Below, piece by piece: positions 4,891 through 52,100 of a stretch of 64,000 nt of DNA; position 1 is the first letter of the stretch, and each line of letters starts with the position of its first letter. A program made the translations under genes and the position numbers. Origin of the DNA: Thysanoteuthis rhombus. Its lineage: Eukaryota > Mollusca > Cephalopoda > Oegopsida > Thysanoteuthidae. The notes beneath the pieces were generated by a model. That model was given only the letters and a program-made list of their open reading frames with translations. It had not been told where the DNA came from and did not search any database. Location of the stretch: the NCBI GenBank assembly GCA_963457665.1, contig OY735207.1, forward strand, positions 37,876,816 to 37,940,815, in the 5' to 3' direction.

Positions 4891-5044
4891 GAGCATTTTA
4901 TGAAGACTTGATGAACATAGAATCTCAGAACCTAATAAGCAGATCTCAAAATTCTATTAAAAATGTCATCTAAAATAAACTCTATCTCTTTTTCTTTTTC
5001 TAATCTTTCTCTCTCTGTCTCTATTATTTCCTCTCACTTTCTTC

Positions 5045-5230
5045 CTGTCTGTCTCTCTCTCTGTCTGTCTCTCTCTCTGTGTCTGTCTCTCTCTGTGTCT
5101 TCCTTCCTCTCTCTGTGTCTTCCTCTCTCTGTGTCCTCCTCTCTCTCTGTCCTCCTCTCTCTCTGTCTTCCTCTCTCTCTGCTCTTCTATCTCTCTGCTC
5201 TTCTATCTCTCTGCTCTTCTATCTCTCTTC
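5045..5230 (+). repeat. Pyrimidine-strand microsatellite/minisatellite
   Basis: CT-rich tract grading from (CTCTGTCT)n through 'ctctctgtcttcctctct' units to three copies of 'tctctctgctcttctatc'. Overlapping open frames here are composition artefacts. Confidence 0.9.
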
Positions 5231-6537
5231 AAAAGATTATTTCTATAGTAAAAAAACAATATAGAATAACTTGAATAAAAGTCCTTCAAAGCATATCCTA
5301 ACTGATTCTCAGTTGATCCCACTTGTTGAATAGTGCCAGTTGGGATAAGGATATAACTCAGTTTGATATTGAATCTTTGATCTATCATATGATTAATATA
5401 AAACCGACCAAAAGTTGGTGTTTGCCATCTCAGAAGCTTCACTCATTTTATGTTGTTGAGACTTGGTTGAAAAACATTTTGCCTGATTAGAATTTGGGTT
5501 CCCTTCTAACCTTGCATTTGGCGTTTTTAACTTCCAAGTGCAAGAAATGTTCAGAATAATTCACTGAATAAAACTTGAATAATTAATTGCTTGCTGCTGC
5601 CCATACAGCTCAGTGATGAAGACTTAGGACAGGAAAATGAAGTTTTTGACTCCTTCATGTTGCTTCTAAAATAGACCTCTAAAAAGTCGTGAATTTGACT
5701 GTGTGCTTATTCTACGATTTGTGCAAGGAACTATTAGCTGCTAAAAATATACACGTGTTATAAAATCACAAGTTGATGTAAAAAAAAAAATCCTAATGTT
5801 CACAAAATAGATTTTCACAACTTGCACAATCATTTGAACTTGCCATATTGAATATCTCTTTATCGATTTTGGAGACTGAAGACTAAAACTTTGAAAAAGA
5901 GCAATAAAGCCCTCCTTCCAAGTTGTCAGTCTTGTATTTGCAAAACTTATGATACCTCTGTTGTTAAAGTAACTCATATTGATTTTGGCTTATTTGTTTA
6001 TTCTTTAGATATTGAGGGCATATGGGGAGGGAGCACATCTTTTATCTCATAGTTGTAGGACAACAATGTTTTTTACTCTCAGAGTATAAGGTTTAGTGGA
6101 CTATGAAAAATTCAAGTTTTTAGAATTTGATTCATGAGCCAGAGTTTTATTGTAGCTGATTGTGTCAATGATTACCTTAGTCACAGACTATCAAAAATTT
6201 AAGTATATGTTCTCCTTCTCTTCCCAAATGATGCATCAAAGCCAGAACCAATGATTCAAGGTATACCTAAAATGTGCAGGATTGAGTTTGAAAAACATTT
6301 TTAGGCTTTTTTGGTGGGGGGATTCTATTTACTACATGATTCTAATGCTCAACTGGATCCCCAATAAATGTTTCCAGTGGAAAACATTGTGATATCATAT
6401 TAGAACATTTATTCTGTCCACATTTATTCTTTGAAAAATTTTTTCACATGACTTCATATTATAATGACAAAGTTTTTCATAATTTTTTTGATGTTAATCG
6501 TTTGGAGTTAAGGAAAGAGAGAACTTTATTTTGACTT

Positions 6538-12600: not shown

Positions 12601-14389
12601 AAAAACTGCAACTTTTTTTCAATTCAAAAGCACTTGATAAAAAGGAAGAATGAAAATTTCGTTACACATTGCAATAATAACCTGGAAAAAATTGAAAACG
12701 CATTCCCAAAGGGTTTTTTCTGGTTGGATATAACGCAAAAGAATGTAAACATCTACCACATGCACAAGCTTCCTAATCCTGGGTTCTGTTGCAGTAAGAG
12801 CACATCTAATATCTGCCTCCCATTCTAGGTGGTGGAAAGCCTTTGTCTTCAGCTGCACCAATGTTGAAAAGCCTGATTTGCAAAGCAAAGTGGGAGCTTC
12901 CTATAGCATGTTTTTGTACAACGGACAAAAAGTGAGGGCCAGTTCAGCAGTATCATAACATTGTAAATAGACCCCTACCCCCCAATATTTGTTTTGTGAA
13001 AATGACTTCTCAATAAATCTAAAAGAATTAACCAAAATACTTCAGAGCCATCATTTAGTATGATGAATCAATAGAGAGGTTCCAGTTCAGCAATATAATT
13101 ACCCACCACCAATCACATTTTTTTTTTTTAATGTTTTTTAATTTTTTCAAGTATCAAGCTTAATTGTTATCAGGGGTGGATTGAGCTGAAATGAAATACC
13201 CCGATAGATTTCTTATATGAATTTTGAAGCCTAAAATGTTAACATACCCCCCCCCCCCACACACACTTTGTTTCTTTGCAGAGTTTGGTCACATGTGGAG
13301 GAACAGGAAATGTGAAACAATGAGATCAAAGTCATCATAGTCCATTACACTGTTTATTTTTTTTAAGCATGAGTCTATTTTCTTTGTATTAGTATTGCGG
13401 TTGAAACAAATTATTTTTGAGCAAGCAAACTTCCCCTCTAACTTAACCGGTGGTCAAGTTACATTAAAAATCTTACAGGCTGGCTATATGATCAGGTATA
13501 GTCTTCTAAATTCTTCCTTTTCACTATGAAGAATTTCTATTTTCATAGATTTTTTACAAGAAAATCCAGGAACAGGATTTACAAAAATAAATGATATACT
13601 TGGCTGCAAACAGGCTTAGGCAAATTATATAGTGTACTTTACAGAATGTTTAGTATTGATTTTTTGTGACCTATAACCAGCAATTAAAACTTTAATCTGT
13701 TGAAATTCATAAGTGAGCTGTGCTCTGATAAGCTTATGTGAAAAAAACAATCCAAACAACTTGTCAGCCTAATTCTTCTCTGTTTCTAGGATTTCAGTTT
13801 TCTATAAAAAACATGCCAGTGGATCAACAAAGTATATTACGAAAATTGGTTATCTTTAAATCAAGCCTCAAAATAATGTTATCTTTTGTCTGGTTTGCAT
13901 GTTTGTTGGAGGCAACGAAATGATAGTTTTTCAGTCTTTTTTTCCCCAAGCTATTCTTAACCCTTTTATCACGGTAATTAACTCCAGCCGCATAATCGAT
14001 GGGCGGCTGTATTCAGTTACAGTTGGGAAAAAGATTCATGTCTATCAATATGATGAACAGCGAGACTTGTTCTGTTTGTTTCTCTGACTTTCCACTTAAA
14101 TGTAATGATTTTGCTGATGAGAGTATTTCCTACCCACCATTTGAACCACCAGCTCAGTAACTTTTGAATAAAATATTAGTTGAAATTCATAAGACATGAA
14201 CATTTATTTACAAGATTAACTACTTAGAAGTAGTGATGCATCAAGTCTTGAAGTAAGTAATAATGTAAAGAAATCATTCAAACTCTACAGTAGATATTAT
14301 TACCAAATGTCTAACTGACCTTGAGTATGTAGTTCCCTTTTGAAAGAAAAAGTTTTTGCACAAAAATTCAAATATATATATATATATAT
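12601..14389. other. No gene recognised
   Basis: AT-rich sequence with a C-run near 13248-13258. It ends at a (TA)n tract (14372-14389) that abuts the Penelope-like relic. Confidence 0.45.
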
Positions 14390-15650
14390 CAAAGCCTTAA
14401 ATAATAGTGGTTTCACCAAAACAAACCTCAAGTATGATAAATAAGTTAAATCCAATAGCAAGAAACAGAGAACCAAGAAAAACAAGAATAGAAAAATCAT
14501 TCAGTATACACCCCCATTTAACTTACAAGTAAGAACTAACTTGGGTAAAATATTAATTCAATTAATTGAAAAACACTTCCCACCCCAAAACCACCCACTA
14601 AGCAAAATATTTAATAAAAATAATTTGAAAATTAGTTTTAGTTGTATGGAAAATTTTAATAGAATTATCACTAAACACAACAATAAAATTATTAGAAATA
14701 ATAGAAGTAAAGAAAGCACTAATACAATAAAAAATCAGACTGCAATTGTCCAAATAAGAGCTCCCTCCTACAAAACAAATGCCTTAGATCTAACATAGTC
14801 TACCAGGCAAAGATAGCAACCCGAGCAAAACTCTTAGAAATAGAATAATAAATCGGAATATCAAACACACCATTTAACACCAACCATACATCATCATTCA
14901 CTCATGAAAAATACAAAAATAGCACATCCCTATCAGCTCATTATTGGAAATCATACCAAATGAATTACAAACCAATGATTAAATGGAAAATTCCAAGATG
15001 AACATGCCAAAATTTAGAAAATTTTTGCAATCTCTGCCTAAACCAGAAATTTGAGATATTGAATTTCACTAAAATTATAAAGAAGATCAAAGTACATTTA
15101 TCAAATAGAAAAAAATGAAATAACTCCTAAATGCAGGCATCGCTCAAAATTCCTACTAACAAATAGTAATCCATACATTAGTAAATTAAAGGTAACGTAG
15201 ATAGTCTATTCCCATATCTATCATCCTGAAAAACTTCCAATCAGCATTATCTACTTCCTAACATGCCCAAATAAATCAGGAATAGTGCAATCCACTAGAG
15301 CCATCAAGGATACCAACATAGGCAATAGACCCGATGCCAAATACCAAGGTCAAGATAAAAACATCCCTCAGAAAACAATTAAGCCTCCTTTCAGAGATAA
15401 CTCATAGTTCTAGTTCACATCTTTTGACTTGTTACTTACAACCATCAACAAAAATATTCACACTACTAAAAACAATGAAACAAAATGAATAACCCCTCCG
15501 ACTCACAGCAACATCCACAAGATTCTCACTGAATTCCCCAAACTAGAATCCAAAAACATAGTCAATAATTTGCCTGATGAGGCCCAGAGAGGGCAGAAAC
15601 ATGAACTAGTTTGTGTAGTGAATCCACATCCTATTATATATATATATTGC
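14390..15650 (+). mobile_element. Penelope-like retroelement relic (3' part with GIY-YIG endonuclease)
   Basis: The frame is broken, but successive blocks match the carboxy-terminal part of Penelope-like element proteins. They are: L-N-N-S-G-F-T near 14400; R-K-I-I-Q-Y-T-P-P-F-N then L-G-K-I-L-I-Q-L-I-E-K-H-F-P near 14490-14580; a C-N-C-P-N-K ... N-K-C-L-R-S-N-I-V-Y-Q-A-K block near 14740-14815; E-K-Y-K-N-S-T-S-L-S-A-H-Y-W-K near 14905-14950; C-N-L-C-L-N-Q-K-F near 15030; and K-C-R-H-R-S-K-F-L-L-T-N ending near 15168. These are the zinc-finger-like, GIY-YIG and terminal basic segments. Frameshifts and stops separate the blocks, so it is dead. Most of the reverse transcriptase is missing on the 5' side, where the relic abuts a (TA)n tract. 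A second (TA)n tract marks the 3' side. A hammerhead ribozyme motif lies in the noncoding 3' part. Confidence 0.85.
15568..15623 (+). ncRNA. Type I hammerhead ribozyme motif in the Penelope-like relic
   Basis: All conserved elements are present in order. The core CTGATGA is at 15574-15580 and GAA at 15596-15598, with the U16.1-A17 cleavage position at 15616-15617. Helix I pairs 15568-15573 with 15618-15623 (6 bp, two wobbles). Helix II pairs GCCC 15582-15585 with GGGC 15591-15594 around a 5-nt AGAGA loop. Helix III pairs 15599-15605 with 15610-15616 (7 bp, two wobbles) around CTAG. Predicted cleavage is between 15617 and 15618. The one departure from consensus is a G-A mismatch at 10.1-11.1, normally G-C, which probably weakens activity. 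Penelope-like elements are known to carry hammerhead motifs in their terminal repeats, so the location fits. Confidence 0.8.
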
Positions 15651-16004
15651 TAAAAGCCATTATAATCCTACTTTTCAGTGGCACTGCTGTTCTATCAAAT
15701 CTGCACAAACCCATCAGCTGTTTACTTATTGTTGTCAAACTCCTGGAGCTGACTTTATTATTGTGAATTTGTCAGACATAGGAATTCAAGACACGAATAA
15801 AAGAGAAAGGTGAAAAGAAAAAGTGATGCCATGACATCATATCGTGTCAACTTGCATTTGCAAGCTTTCTGTATTTTTTTGTAAATATTGACTTTCTATG
15901 ATGAAAAAAATTGTCAAACTCCTACCATTGGTTTTGACTTTACTTTCGTTTTATCACAACAATGACAATGACATCACCAAAATCAGTGATGTCATAACGC
16001 CTGA

Positions 16005-17559: not shown

Positions 17560-17905
17560 ATCTGGGGGTCCTCTCTGCCGCATTGATGGTATCCATTGAT
17601 GCCCAAATCTCTAAAGACTGGCTGAAGAACGGTCTGCAGATCCCCTGCATCCCACATCCACTCTCCATCCAGCTTACTAGCCGTCGGCAGCTGTTCGTAT
17701 GCATATGGTGAGCCTTTTTTTCAAAGGCCTCTTCCAAGTGATCTTCCCATGGGACTTTCAGCTCTAGCAGCACAACTTGCCTGGTGGGTTCAGACACAAG
17801 GACAATGTCTGGTAGCAGGGGGATGCCTGCAATATGGTTGGCAAACCAGATGCCGTTCAAGGTCCGCCAACAGCCGCCAATCCCTTGCTGAAGTCGAGAT
17901 GCCTG
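17560..17905 (-). mobile_element. Retrotransposon fragment with PD-(D/E)xK-like endonuclease motif
   Basis: The minus-strand reading contains P-D-I-V-L, an 11-residue gap and L-L-E-L-K-V-P-W-E-D, then E-E-A-F-E-K-K and a G-C-G-M-Q-G block. This resembles the carboxy-terminal domain common in animal non-LTR elements with a restriction-like endonuclease (R2 / NeSL-type, K/R-P-D ... D/E-x-K). A preceding block, A-R-D-W-R-L-L-A-D-L-E-R-H-L, lies in another frame just upstream (17905-17850), so at least one frameshift separates them. A stop follows A-A-E-R-T-P-R where the family usually has a W-L-W end. Only this terminal domain remains. The assignment is by motif memory, not by search. Confidence 0.65.
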
Positions 17906-18093
17906 CAGATGTTCTTTTGTAAGAAACTGATATAAGAATTGTTTCCTTTTTATCCAAACCTTAGATCATCCATTCAAATTTATTTACAGAGACGGATAAC
18001 GAGTGAAAGCATTTTGGCAGACTATTTGGCTTTTTAATTTTTGCTTCAGCCATAAGAAATCTAAATCATTGACGATTATCATAAGTGTACTAC

Positions 18094-48251: not shown

Positions 48252-49004
48252 TAGAAAGTCTTACAGCTTTGAACACTAAATACATTGAAAAAAGCTTTTG
48301 TGTCACTTCAGTCTCTAATCTCCCAGTATCTGTAATTTTCTTCAGTGTTTTTTGATGTTCTACATACACTTTGTTATTAGGGCACAATGTGAAAATCTTC
48401 TCTTGTTGGGATTATCAATTGTTTACTATATAATTATTGAACCTAACCTGCAGATACTGGTTAGCTTCATGATAAAATTATTCAAATTCTCAATGAAAGT
48501 GAATGCATTTGTGAGGTACAAGCTGTGAAGGAAGAGTTGAATTGTTATTGACAATGAGCAACAGAGAGAAATTCAATAAAAAGTAATTTTTATATTTTGC
48601 TTTATGTGGTCAAATTATGTTGTATCTGGCTCATATACCTTGCTCGTCTCTCTCTTTCCTTCTCTTGGATATAAAAAATCAAGAAGGCGTAGAGAGAGAA
48701 CAGAGAGATACAATAGTGACTCTGGATATTGCTATTGTCACTGGTAACCCTAAAGTGGTACGTCAGTCTTGTACAGAGGGCAACATACTAGAGTGACTGT
48801 TGAAGAAAGATATCAGTTCATCTGGTTATTTTCCATTTTCTTGTTAGCTTTCTCTTTCTCCCTTCTTTCTTTCTTCTGTTTTTTCTTCTTTTTCTTCCCT
48901 CTCCCATTTTCTTTTCCTCCCCTTTTATTCCTTTAAGCCTTTATTCTCCTTCCTCTCGTCCATTTTCATTTAAAAATCTAATATATTTACTTATTTATTT
49001 CCAG

Positions 49005-49145
49005 ATTTTTAAGTTACTCAATCCTCGCCTGATTTTGTCAGGCCATACCCACCATGGCTGCTATAGGGTCCATGAAAATGGGACACCAGAGTGGACTGTT
49101 TCATCACTGAGCTGGAGAAACAAAGCATCTCCAACATTCCTTCTG
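49005..49145 (+). CDS. MPPE1: MPPE1 exon with GHTH metal-binding motif
   Basis: Forty-seven codons contain N-P-R-L-I-L-S-G-H-T-H, the last metal-ligand motif of calcineurin-like phosphoesterases. V-S-S-L-S-W-R-N-K and A-S-P-T-F-L-L follow, matching the conserved S-W-R-N block of MPPE1. An N-G-T sequon lies between them. The exon is phase 0-0, with acceptor TTTCCAG and donor GTTAGT. All metal motifs visible in the window are intact, so nothing here suggests a pseudogene. Confidence 0.95.
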
Positions 49146-52100
49146 GTTAGTAAATATCACACAATCAGTATTGATGTCGTCCATCAATAGAGAAAACACT
49201 CTCAATGCTTAGCTTGAAACTGTTTTGTCTTCATGCTATTTGAAAAAGAAAATGTGTGGTTTGGTATGATTTTATTTTTTTACTAATTTATCCATACCAT
49301 TAAATAACTTGTATTCAAATTTTGCAGTTTAATTTTAGTTGAAAAAATAATGTTGCTTTGATTTTTTTTTTAATATATTTACAAAAAAAAAAATGAATGA
49401 ATGAAGGAAATTACTGTATAATTAGCATTCAATTATTATCTCCCTTGACAAATGTTGGAGACAAAAAAAAGACTTCATGCGGCATATTATAGAAGTATAT
49501 CTGTTTATCATTTTTATTCTATCGACTAGAATTTGCTGGCCATTCAGTTGCAATTTTTAAAAATATCCAAATATTATCCTGCATCTGATGCAGTGGAATA
49601 TTTTTAATGGAAGCACCAAATGTACAGTTTATTCAGATAGGGAGAATAGATAAGTGAAGTACTCTCCAAAACGTTTTTGTGAAAAACATACTTCTTATGT
49701 TGGTAAACACTATTTGAAATTGTTTGAAGTAAAATAACCCTATTTTATTGGTGTTACATCCTCTTGATGTTTAATTGAGTGAGAAAGTTTTAATAAATTA
49801 AGAATATCTTTTTTGCAATGTGAAGTGATATAAAGTACAGCTATTTTCGTTCTGAGCTTTAGGCTTCTTCTGTTGTTGAAAATGTTTTTTTTATTCATCT
49901 AAATTTATGAGACTTATCCTGTATTTCAAAATAGGACTAAAAATCTGGACCACTTCTCCATCCTACCCTTGGAGTGGCCATTTAAACAACTAAATTTTGA
50001 CGAGGCATCCTTCCCAAGGAAGCAGTCTAGAGAAAGGGGAGAAATTATTTGTCAAAATTGAAAAAGATATTGTACACTCCTATGAATACATAAATTTGTC
50101 TATCATGGTTTATTCCTCCAACTTAGTTTTGGCAATAAAACATTCTATTCATCAAACCAGTCTAGGGGGAAAGATCTAGTTATCCCCAACTCTTCAAGAA
50201 CTCAATCATACCAGGAAACCGTATCTATTGATGATACTTATTCAGGGGAAACTACTCATCACTAACGAATATTGCATTATGATTATCTCCCTTGGCCACT
50301 TTCATTGAAGCACTGGTATTACGGCATTTATTTTGTAGGATTATTGCAATATTTATTTTAAGGTTGATTTTTTTGTCAGTTATGAAACTTGACTAAAATT
50401 TGCTCGTCATGTTTTTCTGCAAACATTTCCGAAGCATAAAATCAAGCCTTAATACTGTTGTATACATTTATTTTTTCAATTTGAAAAACTTATTGTTAGT
50501 CAGACTAGGATTGCATATTTTTTTCGCTGAAATGAGTAACAAATACCTATTCGACTTAATCTACTAGCTAGATAAATAGATATATAGGCCACAATACATT
50601 TGATAGAAATATCTATCTATGTTCTGTGGAGTTTCAGTGGTTTTCTTCACATCGTCTTACTTATTCTAAGAGTTTATAGTTAATTATTGCAAAGCTGTTA
50701 ATAGTGTGAATAATTGTTTTTATATCTTATCAATTTCATCTTGGGTTTTATTGAAAAATGAGAACTCGTTCAAATTCATTGTTTCAAATGGTTGGTAGGA
50801 AATATCTTTATCAGCACATTGTTACTTTTAAGTGAACGAGTTGATTGTTATTGATAAGAAACAGAAAAATCGCACTATTCATTATATGAGTAGATTTTAA
50901 ACCAACAGGGGAAGAAACCTTTCTTTTTTTTTTTTTTTCTTTTTTAAAGTTAAGATCAAAGCATTCACATTTATATGAAAGTATGTAAATAATTGCTTTC
51001 TCTTGGAGAATGTATATGATCATTTACAAATCTAGAAAATGAATTGAATACAAAATATTACTGTCATCATTGTAAAGCTAAGAGAATTTACAAAATCAAT
51101 CACCTCTCAAATCATTCTAAAGTAATTGAAATAGCCCTGAAATCAAAACCACTTAACCGGGTTCTATAAACCAGCATTAACTCTTGAATCCATTCTTGAA
51201 ATTTTAAAAAATAATGCTAGGGAAGTAACTTCTGAGCATACGTGTGTGTGTGTGTGTGTAGACATATGTATCCTCTTTTATAAATACTGGTATCTCCTGC
51301 TATCAGAAAGTAGACTGTTCCAATGGAACTTTTCATGAGTCAAAATGCTGTGAAGGAAAAAACAATTACTATTTATTTATAAGGGAAGACTTTATTAGTG
51401 TTCCAAGACCCCCCCCCCAACAATCTTCTAGGTCTGCCAGTTTTATGCTTCGCCTTGCAATCTTATGGGCTCTCTTATGGATTTCTGATAGCTTAGGACA
51501 CAGTTTGCTAACAGGCACAAAATACAGATAAGACACTGATGTTCAAAGTCTCTGTTCAAAGTTATGATGGCTTGAGATTTTTGAATAAAAAAAGGAGTGG
51601 CGTAAAGCAAACCTTTATAGAGCAGTGGATACCTGTGCCAATAACTAATGTTCTTGCTACCAAGAAAGTGTTGGGTTAGTTTCTTGTCAAAGTTCAACAT
51701 TCAATGCGGAAAAGTGGATATCAAACAGATACTGTTGTCTATAGATGGAAGTAAGACTTTGAATAAGTTTTCATTCTTTATTTTTAATCATTACTTGTAT
51801 TTATTTAATCCCCTCATTTAAGGCTTGAAATTACTACTATGCTGACATTTCTTCCACTCTGCCCCTTACATTGACCATTAACTATAGAAGAAGGGAAGAA
51901 CTTTTTATCTCGGTGATATCCTTATAAAGTTCTTACAGATCTACTGGTTACATGATTGAAGATGTACTACTTATGAATTTTCTTAATAACCATTGAATAA
52001 GCATATTTTGGGTGAGATTTTTTTTTCCTTATTTACCTTATAATAGAAGTGTGAGTTATGTGTTTGTAGCTGTAATCAGTGACATGTGTATACAATATAT

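Follow-up and report, generated by a model that had tools for sequence, protein, structure and literature searches.

Hammerheads of Penelope-like elements and related carriers

Hammerhead ribozymes of Penelope-like elements (PLEs) were reportedly described by Cervera and de la Pena in 2014. As far as the consulted parts of the sources go, the Anolis PLE (PAc) carries its hammerhead across the junction of the pseudo-LTR (pLTR) and the ORF, reverse transcription is started internally within an AC-rich stem-loop and AT-rich targets are preferred (PMC11167929). The same excerpts state that the Anolis hammerhead cut only when protein was present in the assay, that mutants of the hammerhead were without effect on insertion and that PLE hammerheads were assayed at 3-25 mM Mg2+ (PMC11167929). 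PLE copies were described as becoming 5' truncated upon insertion (PMC8969392, in the excerpt available), and the corresponding part of the work on a rotifer PLE identified a pseudo-LTR which extends 12 codons into the start of the ORF and which can be lengthened by a 31-bp tail (PMC3846280). Further excerpts describe PLE hammerheads as usually being without helix III (PMC6155905), the Terminons as possessing a hammerhead as their 3'-terminal fold with AC-rich repeats adjacent to it (PMC6431247), and the retrozymes as tandem repeats which yield circRNAs of about 170-400 nt (PMC7229834).

A type I hammerhead motif at 15568-15623

Within the window, i.e., the whole stretch of 64 kb of DNA that was analysed, an independent descriptor scan of both strands returned one match, a type I hammerhead motif on the plus strand (15568-15623), whereby the hammerhead claimed in an earlier note on this DNA was recovered with exactly its coordinates, helix lengths, core and type I order. 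The hammerhead core consists of C3U4G5A6N7G8A9 and G12A13A14 together with A15.1-U16.1 and H17, and both the descriptor and the list of fixed core positions followed this textbook definition. Motif and geometry can be read directly: each of these core elements is found, CTGATGA being located at 15574-15580 and GAA at 15596-15598, and the core is intact at 11 of 11 fixed positions. Likewise all three helices are found, helix I being open-ended. Helix I is formed by 15568-15573 with 15618-15623 (6 bp, two wobbles; CG GT TG TA TA AT), helix II by 15582-15585 with 15591-15594 (4 bp, every pair G-C; GC CG CG CG) and helix III by 15599-15605 with 15610-15616 (7 bp closed by a CUAG loop; AT CG AT TG GT AT AT). 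The length of helix III depends on the loop rule, as 8 pairs were counted under the rule used first and 7 when a loop of at least 3 bases was required; four of these 7 pairs are A-U and two are wobbles. Taken together, helices I and III contain four imperfect pairs, every one of which is a wobble. A15617 takes the position of H17, which places the predicted cut between 15617 and 15618 and agrees with the U-A cleavage dinucleotide reported before; the G-A defect reported at 10.1-11.1 was found as well, as G15581 and A15595 are mispaired outside helix II and the pair that is usual, without being defining, at this position is absent. On these grounds, 15568-15623 is filed as a hammerhead motif and not as an active ribozyme. 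The features of the locus are compiled in Table 1.

Table 1. Positions of the hammerhead motif, the surrounding insertion and its flanks within the window.
Feature	Position	Strand	Basis
Probable target-site duplication, copy on the left: (AT)n, then CAAAGCC	14372..14396	.	Direct repeat with right flank
Insertion body, probably a 5'-truncated PLE, A-rich on the plus strand	14397..15634	+	Borders from flanking repeat; composition
Decayed ORF, first open segment, ahead of the endonuclease	14496..14744	+	83 codons free of stops; family putative
Second segment, in the other frame, a GIY-YIG-like endonuclease remnant interrupted by three in-frame stops	14747..15112	+	Reading frames; 43% to a hand-made PLE consensus, a lead only
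Third segment, first frame again, probable ORF end (CRHRSKFLL)	15114..15182	+	Reading frames; family putative
Type I hammerhead motif, predicted cleavage 15617/15618	15568..15623	+	Descriptor scan, pair listing, null simulations, covariance models
Helix II and loop, outermost G-A (10.1-11.1) mispaired	15581..15595	+	Alone folds at -7.2 kcal/mol
Helix III, near-palindromic, 7 bp, CUAG loop	15599..15616	+	Alone folds at only -1.6 kcal/mol
Short tail from hammerhead to target DNA: CCACATCC, then T/A	15624..15634	+	Sequence; compared with published start of reverse transcription in AC-rich stem-loop
Probable target-site duplication, copy on the right: (TA)n, then TGCTAAAAGCC	15635..15658	.	Direct repeat with left flank

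Chance expectation, covariance models and folding

The frequency at which such an arrangement is expected by chance was derived from several null sequences. Among 100 Markov-simulated windows, matches of whatever strength occurred at 0.13 per window and none reached a helix sum of at least 16, the observed sum being 18 under the loop rule of that scan. In 6 Mb of random sequence trained on the window, both strands considered, 18 matches were counted irrespective of strength and a single one with a helix sum of at least 16, which corresponds to 0.19 and 0.011 per 64 kb, respectively, the latter rate resting on a single event and the observed sum being 17 under the stricter loop rule applied here. 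Random sequence trained on the element (4 Mb, both strands) gave 8 matches of any strength and 0 with a helix sum of at least 16. When the core and GAA are taken as given, the probability for helices I and III to sum to at least 13 is 2.5e-5. The bare pattern CTGATGA...GAAA occurs 4 times in the window as compared to 1.34 expected occurrences, and helices were found only for the match at 15574.

With Rfam at gathering threshold, 0 matches were obtained for the motif, and a run with permissive filters gave Hammerhead_3 as sole hammerhead match (14.7 bits, E 1.6; threshold 48.5), a score similar to those of the unrelated families CAESAR (16.0) and Sso133 (12.5) within the same run. As of overlapping clan members solely the best is kept, Hammerhead_1 cannot have scored better than Hammerhead_3 there. 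In a control on 6 viral loci with well-paired type I-like motifs, Rfam at gathering threshold detected a hammerhead in none, these motifs being themselves predictions and one of them possessing C-A at 10.1-11.1; hence, Rfam gathering thresholds can miss motifs of this hammerhead type. A covariance model (R2) was subsequently built from 57 of 58 selected viral motifs, one odd row (L182) being omitted, whose helix II differs from that of the window; the selection was drawn from 76 distinct motifs among 90 type I-like ones, these in turn coming from at least 128 pattern matches. Applied to the 64-kb window, R2 returned a single hit, which covers the model at full length and locates to 15568-15623 (13.1 bits, E about 0.09). 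Among 22 other viral loci, none of which contributed to R2, matches were found in 19, with their pattern-matched motifs scoring at least 22.5 bits, while no match was obtained in L006, L021 and L080, the three loci whose 10.1-11.1 position is C-A. Two off-pattern matches within viral loci scored 14.3 and 13.3 bits, and taken alone the 13.1 bits of the window motif lie in the twilight. A further model (R1), made from 32 of 69 distinct type I-like viral motifs, scored the window motif at 24.4 bits (E 3.3e-5), a value which is circular with regard to helix II, because helix II of the window motif had supplied the pattern by which the members of R1 were retrieved. Covariance support for the motif is thus weak, and the check by covariance model which had been proposed in the earlier note ended divided: the Rfam score falls below threshold, an outcome which the note had listed as refuting, though this threshold missed 6 of 6 viral loci, and R2 places its only hit at exactly the expected coordinates with a low score. 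Folding of the lone RNA gave a minimum-energy structure other than the hammerhead (-13.7 vs -9.9 kcal/mol for the hammerhead fold) and was no better than that of shuffled sequences (z-score 0.01).

The mismatch at 10.1-11.1 and its bearing on activity

The pair at 10.1-11.1 matters, because compensatory changes at G10.1 and C11.1 were reported for cave-cricket hammerheads (PMC2837043, excerpt). The standard G10.1-C11.1 pair was described for the structure of a pseudoknot hammerhead (PMC11300833, likewise in excerpt). A hammerhead from axolotl that has U-U mispaired at the base of its helix II still cleaved 22% within one hour (PMC7229834). Among the viral type I-like motifs, C-A at 10.1-11.1 was found in 3 of 84 (2 of 69 distinct ones); the viral contigs concerned, L006, L021 and L080, have an otherwise complete type I motif, and similar motifs (e.g., L039 and L049) have G-C at this position. 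Thirteen viral motifs with T-C in this place (e.g., L069, L001, L085) were not counted as mismatches, as they look rather as if a T had been inserted after CTGATGA, ahead of a helix II that is perfect; this extra T possibly is an insertion variant of the hammerhead core. Considering the viral C-A motifs and the cleavage of the axolotl U-U hammerhead, the mismatch is no proof for the death of the ribozyme. Activity is nevertheless not assured, because the first pair of helix II is unformed and the RNA taken by itself favours a different fold, and the RNA of 15568-15623 would be expected to cut weakly or not at all.

The insertion and its decayed reading frame

The motif is located at the 3' end of a decayed insertion of about 1.2 kb, whose borders are directly visible in the sequence. 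Two AT tracts bracket the segment, each being followed by ...AAAGCC. AT tracts are rare in the 64 kb, as only 9 were found which, with margins of 20 bases, cover about 1%, and out of the 36 pairings possible among these 9 solely the one at 14372.. and 15635.. has six 3'-flanking bases in common. The flanking repeats are not identical: their tracts measure 18 and 13 bases, AAAGCC follows at unequal distance, and part of the sequence is of low complexity. The repeat is probably a target-site duplication within (AT)n DNA, which would set the body to about 14397-15634. With the 3' border adopted (15634), the predicted cut is 17 bases away from it. The composition of 14397-15632 (A 0.44, G 0.11) differs from that of the 3-kb flanks (A 0.31-0.32, G 0.16-0.18), and the optimum segment derived from composition only is 14360-15569, the right border of which coincides with the start of the hammerhead and thus lies before most of the motif. 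As to the pseudo-LTR, one terminal region is present in the insertion, and blastn did not find a second copy of the segment in the window.

The remnant of the reading frame comprises 3 stops in 228 codons, all within the second of three segments, and two frame changes, which upholds the statement that the neighbouring coding part has lost its frame. Two of the three stops stand just before the IG of an expected YIG. We take the remnant to resemble the C-terminus of a PLE protein, as judged by Cys motifs, NIVYQ, IG after two stops, NHTSSF, CNLCL and CRHRSKFLL. Its endonuclease part was 43% identical over 94 residues to a PLE consensus, a value that serves as a lead only, since this consensus was put together by hand after the window had been read. 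No reverse transcriptase part was recognised in the insertion. Searches of the ORF pieces against Pfam and PDB yielded no relevant match, a sub-threshold Calponin-homology match (E 0.051, 0.063) being set aside as chance. Viral contigs yielded no PLE relative with the endonuclease piece of the window, the hand-made consensus or an alignment of the piece with a longer hand-made consensus as queries, and neither did the collection of genome contigs, for which the queries were the hand-made consensus and the same alignment. In line with this, tblastn of four window pieces against 113 viral loci gave nothing below E 0.05, and peptide strings of the remnant were without match in a literature search. 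An AlphaFold2 model of the single read-through sequence was discarded (pLDDT 41.7). From the claim of a dead Penelope-like element the decay, i.e., stops and frame changes, can be regarded as established, whereas the label PLE is probable from anatomy and motif likeness and was confirmed by none of the searches. Taken by its anatomy, the insertion is probably a PLE.

Elsewhere in the window, the ORF 48804-49187 (+), ending LILSGHTHHGCYRVHENGTPEWTVSS..., was without Pfam or PDB match; it presumably resembles an exon from a host gene for an MPPE1-like metallophosphoesterase. Another ORF, 17561-17965 (-), contains PLLPDIVLVSEPTRQVVLLELKVPWEDHLEEAFEKKAHHM and had no Pfam match, this sequence presumably being typical of proteins from repetitive elements in aquatic animals. 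At 4939-5271 (+) an open frame is found which is rich in repeated Leu-Ser/Cys-Leu, as it would derive from a CT-rich simple repeat.

Proposed origin and alternative explanations

The reading that we consider highly likely is that 15568-15623 represents the hammerhead from the 3' terminus of a single PLE copy, old and truncated at its 5' end, which decayed neutrally. In the RNA of the live element, the hammerhead would have been positioned near the junction of pseudo-LTR and ORF. Reverse transcription would have begun shortly 3' of the hammerhead at an AT-rich target and stopped short upstream, leaving a copy limited to the ORF end for the C-terminal endonuclease, the 3' portion of the pseudo-LTR and the hammerhead with its short tail; this copy afterwards would have decayed neutrally; truncating reverse transcription would accordingly have preceded the decay. 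Truncation at the 5' end is suggested because the N-terminal part of the protein is missing. Such a copy may be expected to lose its protein first and to keep its hammerhead, which is nearly complete because it is small, resides at the end where copying starts and can still be recognised once a few hits have accumulated. An origin from a PLE is favoured because the AT-rich borders match the preference for AT-rich targets described for a PLE in PMC11167929, and the locus also shares 5' truncation, target-site duplication and a 3' tail by the hammerhead with PLEs, the repeat being imperfect and partly of low complexity. Against this origin stand the right border derived from composition (15569), the unlike flanking repeats, the 7-bp helix III, the lack of a second copy in the window and the outcome of the library and collection searches, none of which confirmed the PLE protein.

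That same border at the start of the hammerhead would fit a separate insertion of retrozyme or satellite type beside an unrelated dead element, and type I hammerheads were indeed found in animal retrozymes (PMC7229834, excerpt). However, a single flanking repeat encloses both the ORF remnant and the hammerhead, and the window contains neither a second hammerhead nor a second copy of the segment, whereas retrozymes were described as tandem repeats; a separate insertion is thus regarded as very unlikely. Yet a little less probability is given to the idea that the ribozyme is still used or selected, e.g., in RNA processing of a host transcript or in copies mobilised in trans. The earlier note had asked whether a fold that outlived its protein indicates recent mobility or continuing function, and the 11 intact fixed core positions as well as the exclusive occurrence of wobbles among the four imperfect pairs would be in favour of the latter. 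From the stop count, a divergence of about 0.096 substitutions per base was estimated (95% interval 0.020-0.279), which presupposes an intact ancestral ORF and neutral decay. At d=0.09 an 11-base core remains untouched with a probability of 0.354 (0.80 at d=0.02; 0.02 at d=0.3), hence no selection is needed, because neutral decay spares the core about one time in three. Together with the unformed 10.1-11.1 pair, the preference of the lone RNA for another fold, the 5'-truncated state of the fragment and its PLE-typical site, this speaks against the meaning ascribed to the fold. For a dead PLE copy, a 3'-terminal ribozyme that looks intact is about what neutrality predicts and is no sign of continuing function. 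Least probable of all is a chance resemblance arisen within the A-rich decayed insertion. It could draw on the Rfam scores far under threshold, on the E of about 0.09 obtained with the model whose helix II is unrelated and on the two off-pattern viral matches that outscore the window motif; these are opposed by the 0.011 matches of this strength expected per window, their absence from the element-trained sequence, the low probability of helices I and III with the core given, and the position of the motif, which terminates a PLE-like insertion on its 3' side.

Returning to the decayed PLE copy, it may further be speculated, albeit as an unlikely extension, that the parent family possessed a near-palindromic helix III of 7-8 bp and could cleave as a monomer without protein help of the Anolis type, in which case the four wobbles would mark selection on pairing before the death of the copy. 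The long helix III deserves attention only if sibling copies have it too. All in all, the locus is an ordinary decayed hammerhead in its published setting, and the useful points are methodological.

Comparison with known hammerhead carriers

A literature search for hammerheads in cephalopods gave no paper. The locus is here placed beside the carriers introduced above, within the limits of the excerpted sources. With the hammerheads of PLEs it shares the type I order, the position in a terminal region where ORF and pLTR join, helices I and II of minimal length and an AT-rich target; it differs by a 7-bp helix III with CUAG loop, by G-A at 10.1-11.1 and by residing in an element that is 5'-truncated and dead. 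With the Terminons of bdelloid rotifers (PMC6431247) it has in common that the hammerhead serves as 3'-terminal fold with an AC-rich stretch adjacent to it, but these are giant and telomere-attached, whereas the fragment in the window measures 1.2 kb and ends without a run of ACACCC or TCACCC repeats. To the metazoan non-LTR retrozymes (PMC7229834) it is linked by the type I hammerhead, yet these are small, non-autonomous tandem repeats, while the window contains a single copy joined to the remnant of an ORF.
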